DNA of 64,000 bases from assembly GCA_002104935.1 (NCBI GenBank), contig MCGT01000005.1, positions 310,001 through 374,000 on the forward strand. The letters are read 5' to 3'. Numbering within the stretch: position 1 is the stretch's first letter; every line of letters starts with the position of its first letter. A program made the position numbers and the translations under genes. This document shows, in pieces, positions 51,450 to 56,396 of the stretch. A model generated the notes under the pieces. The model ran no database searches. It saw only the letters and a list, made by a program, of their open reading frames with translations, and was not told where the DNA came from. The stretch comes from Hesseltinella vesiculosa. Its lineage: Eukaryota > Mucoromycota > Mucoromycetes > Mucorales > Cunninghamellaceae.

Positions 51450-52168
51450 ATTTTAAGAGAAAAGAAAAGGGGAGTTGAATATAAAAATAAAAGGTGTAGA
51501 TCAAAAAAAAAAGCAAGGAAAGAAACGCATCTGGCTTTCGATGATCGCTATTTATTTTCCCGGTTTTTGGGCACTGTGACTTTTTTCATGCATTTGTCAA
51601 AAGTTGGTCATCGGCCACGCCTGTCACAATCTGGTCAGCCAAGCTTGAGAATGATGAAAAATACAAGCGTCGGTGAATCTACTTCACCCGCCTTTTTCCA
51701 TTGGCTGAACCAAATGGATGTCCAAATATGGCAAGCCACGTTCCTTCCTTTTTGTCATGGCCAGTTGCCCTTTGCATCAGTGAAGCATTTTATGCTTTTC
51801 CCATGAAAACTGGACAGGGTGGTGAGTGCTCCATCCAGCAGAGTTATGCTTTCCGAAGCACCAACCTATCGTATGGCTGGGATATGCCTTGGCCGCTGTG
51901 CGCTACACTTTTATTGAAAATTGAAGTCGCAAATACACTTACCCAATCAAGAGAGGGTAGAGCAGGAGCGACGAAAACGAACAGTGAGTGCCAAGCCAGA
52001 TTTTTTTTTTTCATCCTCTCTCGATTCTTACCTGTATCGGGCAAAGCCCACACTTCAAACAGATGAAAAAAAAAAAAGTCATCCGTAACCAAGACTAATT
52101 GGTAGAATAAAAAAAATAAAAAAAAAACTCTAAATAAAAACATGAGTTCACATAAAACAATCAAGTTA
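51450..52168. other. Region downstream of Fanzor; possible guide-RNA locus
   Basis: 719 bp between the FSP1-like start codon and the Fanzor stop codon, without a gene. In characterised Fanzor and TnpB loci the guide (omega/fRNA) is transcribed from the 3' side of the protein gene, so this is the place to look. By eye I see only a weak hairpin (GGGCTTTGCCC, reverse strand, about 52040-52050), several A/T runs and no terminal inverted repeat. The FSP1-like promoter must also lie in the first few hundred bases. Confidence 0.3.
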
Positions 52169-55100
52169 TCAGATTTCCTTACAATTTTGCGGTGGGAGGG
52201 AGATGAGGGGGAGAGTCGGACGTCGATGATGTGGACCACCAGGAGCTGGTCGTGCGAGGGGAGCAGGCCGGGCCCCAACCTCCAGCGTTGAGAGCGCAGC
52301 CCAAAACATGTTGTTGGCTGCACAGGCATCTCGGCCCCAAAACATGCAGCAGGCAGTGCAGTGCTTCAGGCCAAAGATGCCTTGTTGGTTGTTGTTGTTG
52401 GCAACGGGTGACAATTGGCCTCCACAGACATTGCAAGCCTAGATATAAGAAGAAAAATCGTACATTTGTCACTTGTCTTCTGACTAAAAAAAAAAGCACT
52501 TGCTTGGCTGGTCAAGTATTCGTCTGTGTGCAGTAGCAGAGCAAGGGCACGGGACTGGCGTTCGAGTAGGTGATTTCGGACAGTATCCGTTCGTCCAACT
52601 GCATGCCCTCGGATTCTGGCCCCATCGCGACCAATCATTGCAGCACCAAACGCTACCAAGGATGGGCCTTGTTGCTGAGGGCGGGAGCCATGGTATCGTT
52701 TCTTCATAGGACTAGGAGGGGAAGAAAAAAGTGAGCACGATTTTTTTTCCAAGGGCGACTTCAGGTTTACTTTTTTGGGCTAAAAGAAGAGGTGGAATAG
52801 TCAGATTCCCTTTTTTTTTTATTCCATTTCCTACCTATGGTTCAGTTCCAGGAACTTTTGTTGCAGTTGTTCCTTTTGGTTTTTCAGGAGCAGTCGATGT
52901 TGTTCCAGTGTGTTGACCATGAGCTCGTGGGCGGTCACCTGTGTGTTCAGTGCGCTTTGGATGGCTTGGTTTTGTGACAGGTCGAGATCCATGATCCCGG
53001 AAACAATGGCATCCATGGCGGCTTCTTGGACAGCGATTTGGTTGTCGACATCAGCGATCTGGGTATCGACAGCAACATAGTCAGAACGAACAATCTGCTG
53101 CTTGATTGCCCGCTTTTCCTGGCTCAACTTGCGACGCCGGCGTCGGTTTTTCCTCGTCTTGGCTTTCATTCGCTTGGCCTTGCAATATTTGGCAGACCCG
53201 GTCAACATGATGTTGACACAGGCCGCGGCTCCTCGTTGCTGACCCTTCTTTGCTTCAAATCGGGCTTTCGATGAGTGGCTTCCATAAAATGCCATTGTCG
53301 ACGTCAGATGGCGGAGTTTGTGCGAGACGGCTTGCCGAAATTCAACTACGTCGCCTGTGGTCGTCGTCGGCGTTTCCGATTCAATCGTCGCCATCGTTGC
53401 CATAGTGCCGCCAGGAAGAGGTAAGAGCACATTGTTTTTCCTGTCATTCAGGTGCTTCTGACGTACGGTCTCTTTGGTTATCGTCTTGTATTCCTTGGCA
53501 GACACTCTACGTATGGGGTGTGGCTCCGATCCAGATCCAAAGGACGTGGTGACGACCGCTCGACGTCCAGGGTCTGTGCCCGACAGCGCATATTGGTGCA
53601 TGGGGTAAGTCGTATTGGCAAAGTCTTGTGCGTATAGTAGAGGTGGTTTTGGTCCTGTTGGCAGTCTTGCAAACACGACATGCATTTGGACACCGTCCGT
53701 GCGCAACACACCAGAAAACATACGACCATAATGCCATTCATTGTTCACATCATCCACACTAGAAAGTCATGTATAAAATTAGCCCACTTGCCCCCCCCCC
53801 CTTTATTTTTTTTGTCGCTGTGTCTTCTGAACTTGCCTTCCATAACCATATTTGTCAAGGCGGAAAACGTCCCAGAAGAGATTCATTTTTTCCATAAACG
53901 GTGGGACGCGACGGGGTGTTTGACGGCTTATTTGGTGGTGGGGACGGTTGACAAGGGAAGGTAGGTTCTCTGCTGTGATGGTGATAAAGCGTGGGCGGTT
54001 CGAGGGCATTGGGAGAAGCGTGAATGATGGCAATGTGACAGGATCATCGTCAGTCTCGGGCAGAGATCGATGATAGTCGTACACGTCGAGGATACTTCGA
54101 AGCAAGGGAAGGTATTTCGCTGGATCGGCATGCAATGTCTGTGTGGTGATGTCTTCTTCTGATGGCTTCATCTCTCGTAACTCAATGATCACATCATTCA
54201 TCAGACGTCGATGGTGGTGAGGGATTTCTTCGGGAATGGGCTGAGATGGATCTGGTTGGCGGAGCGCAAAGTTGTCGTAGGCATAGGCTTTGATGGCACC
54301 CATGGCACTGCTATTAGGCAACTAAAAAAAAAAAATGGAAGAGAGTCAAGCCCGGAAAAGTCAACCCATGCTTATTTTTTCACTTCTGCTTTACCTCGCC
54401 ATCGACAGCGAACCGGAATTTGATAAAGGCTTTCACCCGTCCTTCGAAGTTCTTGCTGATGTGGTTTTTGTTTGCCGTTGCTTGCTCTTTGCATGCCATG
54501 GTCAATTCCGCAGTGTGGCCCGGCTGGTCATAGGTGTCATAGGGGGCCAAGGTGACATGGTAATCATTGTCCCAATGGCGGAGCAAGGAAGCAGGAACAC
54601 GAGGGTCTTGGGCAGACTTGGTGACAAATTCATCACGGCGACCACGTATGAGCTGGGAGACCAGGTAGAGGCCGTTTTGGTGGAGCAGGAAGGGGGTTAG
54701 ATCAGAGGCATGGTTGGCGGCATAATCTGACATGAACAGTTGAAGGCGAGTCATGACATTCTTGAGATATTGAGATTTGACGGACACTGCTTGTCGTAAC
54801 TGGTCCACAAATGGCTTTCGCACGAAAGCTTCGAAGCTTTTGATTCGTGTGTATTGTTCATGGCCAGGCATGCGGCGTTTCATAAATTCAGCTTTGCTTG
54901 TGGGATGAAATGGGCAGGCACGATTTGCAGAGCTTGAATGTCCAGTCAGATGGCAGGTAGGACAAACTTCAGGCGGGTTTGGGTTGGCAGCTGCCACCTG
55001 AAATTGTTGGGCACCTTGCTGCACCATTCTTCGAATGTCAGCCGCGGTATCAGGGTCCCTAGCTGTCGTAGCGGTGATGGCTGACAAGTGACAAAAAATG

Positions 55101-55500
55101 AGGTCAGCAGGTTTTCACATGAAAATGAAGGCAGAAGTTTACGTCCTTGCTGACGGTCGTGGAATGGACAATCTCGCGACCTGCGAGTCAGGTGATGAGG
55201 AGATCCGCAATCTTGACACAATCGAAGAGCTTGAGAGGGTTTCAAGAAGATGAAAAGGTGAGGAAAAAAAAACTGAAGCAGTGTTATCCCAGATGACTTA
55301 CTTGATCTGTGTTTTTCAGCCCATGAGAGTACAAGGATGGCTTGCTCTTGTGTCAGGCCGTTGTTGGCTTGGAACTCTTGAAAGTTCCCTGTTAGGTTGG
55401 TGTAAACAGGCTCTGGCACATTTATCAAGGTGATATACAGTGCTTGGAGGTGGTGCTTTGAACCTATGTAAGGGCGGCGTTGCGGTTGTTCTCTCTCCAT
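52169..55500 (-). CDS. Fanzor (eukaryotic TnpB-like RNA-guided nuclease)
   Basis: Seven exons keep frame: 55302-55500, 55143-55229, 54395-55080, 53837-54321, 52835-53758, 52504-52711, 52169-52438. The product is 952 residues. RuvC-I is G-T-D-P-G-R-R (Asp548). A Lys/Arg-rich helical region with K-A-K-R-M-K-A-K-T-R-K and a long coiled-coil-like stretch fills 650-790. Then comes V-A-F-G-A-A, D-E-Y-L-T-S-Q at 857-863, a C4 zinc finger (C865-x2-C868 and C890-x2-C893) and RuvC-III G-R-D-A-C-A-A-N-N (Asp900). This is the TnpB C-terminal layout; the TnpB-type RuvC-II Glu is absent and Glu858 is the likely substitute, as I recall for Fanzors. The N terminus has two zinc-knuckle-like modules (C71-C74 and C135-C138, each ending C-P-F-H). 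Two introns have GC donors. A possible 9-nt exon (about 52772-52780) could be included without changing the frame. The start at 55500 was preferred to an in-frame ATG at 55539. Related proteins guide DNA cleavage with an RNA; here the function is inferred. Confidence 0.87.
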
Positions 55501-55638
55501 GTAGCAAGGAAGTTGGAAGGGTGAAAAAAAAATAAGCAAAAAGAGAAGGAAAAAAAAAAAGTCGCGTGCGAGGTTTAAAAATCACAATGAGCCGCTTTTT
55601 GCCATTTTTTTTTCTTCACCCACATCCAGCACGGCACA
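55501..55638. promoter_or_regulatory. Short divergent upstream region of Fanzor
   Basis: 138 bp between the Fanzor start (-) and the start of the truncated + strand gene. It contains A-runs and a T-run and a GTCGCGTGCGAGG stretch at about 55561. No transposon end (terminal inverted repeat) is seen. Confidence 0.35.
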
Positions 55639-55977
55639 ATGACAACCCCACCTCCTATCAACGGTCCTCCCGAAATACCTGGCTACTCCAATGCTGTTGA
55701 TCATTTGCGTACCATGCTGGATAGCCTGGACAGCATCCCCAACGCCGTGGTACGGGCCATCCTGCGAGAACTTTTGGCTGACTACCCCATGGAACCTCGC
55801 CTGTGGGTCCAAGCTATCCATTTAGAATCTCAAGAAGGGAAGCACGATGCTGCAAATGCACTTCTCATGAAAGTCATATACCATCAAGCGAACCTTACTC
55901 TTTTTTTTTTATTTGAAAACGCGGCTCCCTTCTTCACAAGATCGGCAATAGCGAATTCTTTCCCAAATGGTGAATAA
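55639..55977 (+). pseudogene. Truncated gene fragment, HAT/TPR-like
   Basis: The frame opens M-T-T-P-P-P-I and codes convincingly to about 55870 (good third-position usage), with R-A-I-L-R-E-L-L, then E-P-R-L-W-V-Q-A-I-H-L-E-S-Q-E-G-K-H-D-A-A-N-A-L-L-M-K. The L-W-x-x-A-I-x-L-E spacing resembles HAT repeats of RNA-processing factors such as Prp6, but the match is short. After that the frame runs into a T-tract and low-complexity sequence and stops at 55977. No good splice donor is present, so this looks like a 5' fragment of a gene cut off downstream, next to Fanzor. It could still be a short intact gene of unknown type. Confidence 0.4.
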
Positions 55978-56396
55978 ATTGGGCAAGGCAAAACGGTCCA
56001 TCTTCTCTAAAATCGGCAATACCCTTTCCAAATGCGGCAACGGCTTGCGACTTCGCCTTGCGAATTTGTTTTCAAAAAACACTGTAAAAGGAATCCCATA
56101 GCCGTTGCAGGAATGAAAAAAAGACATTTTTTTTTTCTTTATTTTTTTAATGTTAAAGCATGCGAAAGAAAAAAATAAAATAACGGCACCTAAACAAACG
56201 AATTGTACGAATGAAAAAAGAGTATAAAAAATAGAAAAAAAAAAAAAGGGGGGGTCACAGAATAAGGTAGAATGACATGAGACAAACAGGGTTCAAATAG
56301 TGTAAAATAAAAATAGAAAAAAAAATGAAATGGAATATAATGCACAAGATAAGCAATGCAATGAAAAAGTAAGAAGGGTGGGGAAGGAAAGCAGGT
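55978..56396. other. Gene-free AT-rich stretch
   Basis: Contains two related words, GATCGGCAATAGCGAATTC (starting near 55940) and AAATCGGCAATACC (about 56008), followed by long A/T runs. The 3' UTR of the Whi3-like gene (-) must lie at its right edge. No gene seen. Confidence 0.5.

Follow-up and report, generated by a model that had tools for sequence, protein, structure and literature searches.

Structure of the Fanzor Gene

The window, that is, the whole analyzed stretch of 64,000 nt of the Hesseltinella vesiculosa genome, carries on its minus strand a gene whose seven exons, when joined, form an uninterrupted frame of exactly 952 amino acids, as an earlier note on this DNA had proposed along with the in-frame phases. 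Exon 1 (55302..55500), placed by exon joining and spliced alignment, opens with ATG at 55500. Exon 2 (55143..55229) encodes the first CCHC-like knuckle (C71/C74/H78-79/C87), and exon 3 (54395..55080), the second one (C135/C138/H143/C151) and the start of the REC domain, the latter as placed by a paralog model. Exon 4 (53837..54321) ends at a GC donor; exon 5 (52835..53758) contains TDG (506–508), RuvC-I GTDPG with D548 and a long helical insertion. The VAFG strand and the putative alternative catalytic E858 are encoded by exon 6 (52504..52711), which also ends at a GC donor, while exon 7 with the stop codon (52169..52438) encodes the C4 zinc finger and R-D900. All residues named earlier, namely D548, E858, T861/S862, C865/C868/C890/C893 and R899-D900, are present as claimed. 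The earlier reading as an intron-containing Fanzor among host genes is also supported: a Pyr_redox_2 oxidoreductase lies on one side and an RRM protein on the other.

Intron positions were obtained with a purpose-written spliced aligner that took the window protein as its guide. The six positions (residues 67, 96, 324, 486, approximately 795, and 863) are identical in the four family-1 copies, i.e., the window copy (WIN), C32, C64 and C15, and the same six are observed, within the reach of each copy, in C35, C33, C32b, C64b, C7, and C62, at 40–50% protein identity. This recurrence in both close and distant copies puts the observation beyond chance. No frameshift or stop was needed in WIN, C32, C64, C35, C32b, and C33 (C32b and C33 begin at alignment residues 49 and 8, respectively); C15 has one in-frame stop, and frameshifts were needed in C64b, C7, and C62, with one extra intron called in C7.

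The donor of introns 4 and 6 is GC in every family-1 copy, whereas the six distant copies use GT there. The public model of the window locus, P0001 (DM01DRAFT_1405059), assigns the last intron a GT donor four bases downstream, and therefore has frameshifted sequence in place of the zinc finger; in the public P0003 model, which represents a paralog of family 3, the finger is present in the frame used here. With the finger lost from P0001 at a GC-donor intron, a domain-based search would miss the window gene.

Assignment to Fanzor1

Judged by its sequence motifs, the window gene is a Fanzor1-type RuvC nuclease. In all four aligned copies D548-P549-G550, E858, C865/C868/C890/C893, and R899-D900 are invariant. 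In the available text of PMC10711439, DPG at RuvC-I is given as nearly exclusive to Fanzors, and an alternative catalytic Glu six residues ahead of the zinc finger, as a Fanzor1 trait; six residues also separate E858, the candidate alternative Glu, from C865. The same text assigns the TDG motif to the WED domain of Fanzor1; it is found as T506-D507-G508 in the window protein and in three of the four aligned copies overall, the fourth having SDG. In the profile HMM check that had been suggested for this gene, the zinc ribbon was recovered as a PF07282 match in all four Fanzor proteins (best E-value 4.4e-7), while the window protein itself fell below the cut-off (E 0.0027). The spacing D-X(125,275)-[TS][TS] of Bao and Jurka is exceeded, with 312 residues here, the remaining parts of their motif fitting; from the sequence, the longer spacing is a longer insertion in RuvC. 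When the predicted REC domain of a paralog was compared with known structures, the solved SpuFz, GtFz, and PpFz ranked above all other entries; across the RuvC part of the predicted structure pLDDT is below 50.

Direct sequence searches with the Fanzor protein yielded matches from Hesseltinella only (two among the best 8000 candidates, three in a second search), but such searches need shared five-residue words, so a lack of matches does not show absence elsewhere. No Fanzor was matched in PDB by sequence with either the window protein or the family profile as the query, and NCBIfam produced one weak, unrelated match to residues 486–952.

Element Ends and Genomic Copies

The gene is part of an element of 4179 bp (51906..56084, minus strand, oriented as the Fanzor gene), at the borders of which DNA identity to the copies C32 and C64 stops. 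The element is flanked by TA, the target-site duplication, at 51904..51905 on the right and 56085..56086 on the left. TA is observed at all seven intact left ends examined (WIN, C32, C64, C35, C12b, C51, and C3) and at seven of the eight right ends (the window, C32, C15, C30, C33, C35, and C12a); the exception is C64, whose right end is rearranged and, judging by the sequence, looks fused through a deletion between repeats. The left end CAGTGTTTTTTGAAAACAAATTCGCAA (56058..56084, minus strand) is inverted-repeat-like, and its alignment with the right end (51906..51932, minus strand) outscores 4989 of 5000 mononucleotide shuffles. The numbers of shuffles as good out of 5000 are 11 for the window copy, 21 for C3/C33, 118 for C35, and 973 for C32. 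The earlier note saw no TIRs; the element ends lie at 51906 and 56084, with TA outside both, and appear weakly and imperfectly inverted.

Scanning with the window protein identified 26 Fanzor loci in 25 clusters, one with two loci; this is a lower bound, with 48 of 361 candidates scored. Besides the window copy, these are two full elements at approximately 99% identity, one at 87%, and 22 further related loci or fragments. Ungapped whole-element identity to the window is 98.79% (4068/4118) for C32, 98.59% for C64, and 87.2% for C15. The C64 copy is itself inserted into another Fanzor element, of family 2, inside its right end; C33 has this sequence without the insert, broken at TA. TTTA occurs at six of eight left flanks (seven intact ends and the truncated C15 end), with a binomial tail of 6e-5 given that 588 of the 4980 NNTA sites of the window have it, for a pattern picked after looking.

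Element ends of this kind are found in more than one of the Fanzor families of the genome. A search for the terminal pattern TACAST-N(6-20)-AAATGTCGCA gave 19 matches in the genome and none in reversed controls; judging by place and sequence, nine of these represent elements or fragments of the present clade, and two other types account for seven and three. The right end of the window copy is a variant of the pattern and is outside the 19. At least 164 matches to DDE_3 transposases are present in the genome; among those listed, none lies inside the window element and none is shown sharing its ends, and no transposase was recognized by eye in the left arm in the ORF lists of two family-3 copies. 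PF07282 has 125 genome matches at E ≤ 1, where one gene may match more than once. With high confidence we consider the carrier to be a non-autonomous TA-flanked DNA transposon of H. vesiculosa, assigned to the Tc1/mariner type on account of its TA target, with a Fanzor1 as cargo.

Several further observations concern other elements of the genome. One element of another type (L087 338-1459, C50:105301-107577) has a similar end, TA followed by CACTTTATTGAAGTAAAAATGTCGCA, with seven genome matches, of which one was examined; its Fanzor-like gene is highly diverged, with DYG for DPG and NEARTSMTC...C4...GRD, and is matched by Pfam OrfB_IS605 only at E 0.15. The C15 copy (L038, C15:273459+) has a 13-bp direct repeat, TAAAGCTAGGCTT, on its two sides; its left end is truncated, and 11 nt from the right flank stand before it, as though copying had repaired a break slightly downstream of the target TA. 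Next to a family-2 Fanzor element lies a fragment of an additional Fanzor family, with WGIDPGVTD (L084 5785-6503, C64:1-6900), and the 7.5-kb block containing both is common to C64 and C33. Short peptides recur in the ORF list for L084 1-1724, suggesting that contig C64 begins with a tandem repeat array.

Right End and Candidate Guide RNA

The 3′ non-coding end of the element (51906..52168, minus strand) is, by analogy with the position in published Fanzor1 elements, the candidate guide-RNA (omega RNA) region. In the window copy the right end is approximately 100 bp shorter than in C32, C64, C30, and C15, and therefore its own guide RNA may be impaired. A family-1 hairpin (51945..52026, minus strand) with arms at 52026-52015 and 51956-51945 is predicted from the corresponding stretch of C30, where it has z −2.54 with none of 200 shuffles as good; the window coordinates are those of the corresponding arms. 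By eye, this hairpin is not retained in C15 or in other families, and shuffled sequences fold as well as the right-end windows of C30 (z 0.34), C35 (z 0.18), and C33 (z 0.44). Two Rfam matches over 51800-56200 are both below the gathering scores.

Donor-like sites (C)AG/GTAAG and GG/GTAAGT are seen in the 3′ non-coding end at 52027-52036 and 51936-51944, and recur at similar places in three families. Possibly, judging from these sequences, they belong to 3′-UTR introns overlapping the candidate guide RNA.

The Small Divergent Gene

Upstream of the Fanzor start codon, on the plus strand, lies a small TPR/HAT-like gene (55639..55977), its conserved part being 55639-55896, while the 3′ part is decayed in the window copy. 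The earlier note had taken it for a truncated neighboring gene; it starts at 55639, inside the element, and constitutes its second gene. The two start codons are separated by 138 bp (55501..55638), a putative shared divergent promoter. Relatives of the small gene account for 33 genome matches at E ≤ 1. At 20 of the 26 loci of the lower-bound set the small gene is present, always upstream of and divergent from the Fanzor gene (at C62 the match is weak, E 0.077); the six loci without it are the fragments C14 and C2, the contig-start copy C32:289, C59, and the most diverged C55 and C33:210387.

In families 2 and 3 the small gene has two exons and encodes 97 and 96 aa, respectively, with 54% identity between these families. 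The 97-aa product also appears in the public annotation (P0004), where the window gene is given 88 aa and a different 3′ end (P0005). For family 2 versus family 3, dN/dS is 0.21–0.23, in keeping with purifying selection between families, with dS of 1.8–2.0, i.e., near saturation; the window gene compared to family 2 also yields 0.21–0.23 at dS of 2.3–2.6, and compared to family 3 its synonymous sites are saturated. Within the family of the window the ratios are higher, 1.06 for the comparison with C4 and 0.60 for that with C32, the latter from three changes. The gene is truncated in L045, L051, L052, L053, and L059, and frameshifted in C64 and C15. From these sequence comparisons, we read it as an old element gene under real constraint in the past and now being lost in the family of the window.

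The P0004 model comprises five helices in a row, with mean pLDDT of 80.8 and values of about 81–94 from residue 21 on. The structural neighbors of this predicted fold are mostly TPR and HAT proteins, spliceosomal and 3′-processing factors among them. With the small-gene profile, PRPF6 is the best PDB match, as a sum of many weak repeat matches, and Pfam matches are only weak. A direct sequence search of the word-based kind used for the Fanzor gave four matches, all from Hesseltinella. We also considered the host Prp6 as the parent of the small gene and discarded it, as no such match was recognized among the 33 genome matches.

Discussion

The earlier note suggested that the window Fanzor had been captured (domesticated). 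Instead, two other copies are approximately 99% identical over the entire 4.2-kb element, non-coding parts included, identity breaks at TA, and one copy is inserted into another Fanzor element, whose empty site is found elsewhere; therefore, the window gene is a resident transposon gene. The locus does not show the pattern of a domesticated gene, that is, a single copy at a fixed site with no element ends, and we rejected domestication in view of the near-identical copies with the same ends. That the host kept this former transposon protein here for a cellular job is thus very improbable, even given the intact frame adjoining host genes and a shortened right end that might immobilize the window copy: the two other copies at approximately 99% are also intact, and WIN and C32 differ by just 23 coding substitutions (13 synonymous, 10 non-synonymous) in 952 codons, so there is no sign of a separate history at the window site. 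Fanzor dN/dS values are 0.19 for WIN–C15, 0.23 for WIN–C32, 0.30 for C32–C64, and 0.47 for WIN–C64, in keeping with purifying selection; between families, synonymous sites are saturated and pN/pS is 0.33–0.47. A recent acquisition from bacteria of a canonical, prokaryote-like TnpB is harder still to credit, as the PF07282 domain, which would agree with it, is accompanied by six introns, DPG with a relocated Glu, TDG, and a predicted REC domain matching three solved Fanzor1s.

The window copy may be a recent yet inactive relic, with the protein intact and the guide RNA and the small gene broken, a reading that we hold at somewhat under even chances: approximately 100 bp are missing near the right end and the small gene is decayed, but the protein frame and all hallmark residues are intact, and sister copies could supply the RNA. 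As to the small gene, we regard it as a long-standing passenger or partner of the lineage, now decaying in the family of the window. The chances seem to us evenly balanced that it is a mere passenger, a captured host fragment supplying a divergent promoter. Its truncation in several copies, its frameshifts in C64 and C15, and the WIN–C4 ratio of 1.06, suggesting relaxation in the window family, are in line with this, whereas between families 2 and 3 identity is still 54%, the two-exon structure is shared, and dN/dS is 0.21–0.23, albeit with dS near saturation. Alternatively, but only tentatively, as we consider it rather unlikely, the small TPR/HAT protein expressed from a shared divergent promoter may be a dedicated partner of an enlarged zinc-knuckle Fanzor1 lineage, e.g., linking the RNP or guide RNA to RNA processing. 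Compared to Prp6 and other HAT-repeat RNA-processing proteins, the small gene has only about two helical hairpins, and ordinary TPR proteins score equally.

Fanzor1s are RNA-guided nucleases whose RNA comes from the right end of the element, as described in the available parts of PMC10432273 and PMC11423790, and this RNA runs approximately 15 nt past the target duplication, according to the available text of PMC10711439. By analogy, the Fanzor protein of the present element would bind RNA made from its right end, with the first 15 or so nt past the right TA as the guide; for the window copy we infer the guide GCGCACAGCGGCCAA, which would be aimed at the empty site beside a TA-terminated motif. 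The element would be moved by a transposase provided in trans, and the Fanzor would cut the empty site left by excision, with repair copying the element back. The window protein may also act with RNAs of sister copies.

Among known systems, the SPu-1 element of Spizellomyces punctatus is 2.1 kb long and encodes the Fanzor1 SpuFz1 of 633 aa in a single ORF; in contrast, the window Fanzor has 952 aa, seven exons, two N-terminal CCHC-like zinc knuckles, the D-to-TS spacing of 312, and a second gene in divergent orientation. Parasitella parasitica, like Hesseltinella a member of Mucorales, also has a Fanzor1, PpFz1; its FRI has strands and binds cyclophilin, while the insertion here is modeled as long helices (a comparison by description). 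In the available text of PMC3627910, CRe-1 to CRe-3 of Chlamydomonas are Fanzor1s that have introns as well (5 or 10 exons, EST-supported), but reside on Helitron2 elements, whereas the window Fanzor resides on a TA-flanked one. The same source describes PGv-1, a TA-flanked Mariner Fanzor element also combining a Fanzor1 with another protein; that partner, however, is a GIY-YIG nuclease beside a transposase, and here we have a TPR/HAT-like protein and see no transposase.

TA-flanked Fanzor1 elements, Fanzor1s of Mucorales, elements lacking a transposase, and Fanzor1 introns are already published (available parts of PMC3627910 and PMC10432273). What is apparently new is the conserved small gene, the two N-terminal zinc knuckles, and the long RuvC insertion. 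In the available open-licence Fanzor texts, supplements being outside this scope, we find no conserved TPR/HAT divergent gene, paired N-terminal knuckles or long insertion. Hesseltinella is mentioned in none of these texts, although published survey tables in the supplements may include these proteins. Titles and abstract openings of the open-licence literature contain no report of this element or of a HAT/TPR partner of a Fanzor.

Within 27 Mb, the genome provides young copies that are intact, an empty site that was observed, Fanzors of more than one family with like ends, and a conserved second gene. The guide, the target motif, and the partner gene are therefore directly testable in one organism. 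If the tentative reading of the small gene as a dedicated partner is true, it would be a protein partner encoded alongside a eukaryotic RNA-guided nuclease.
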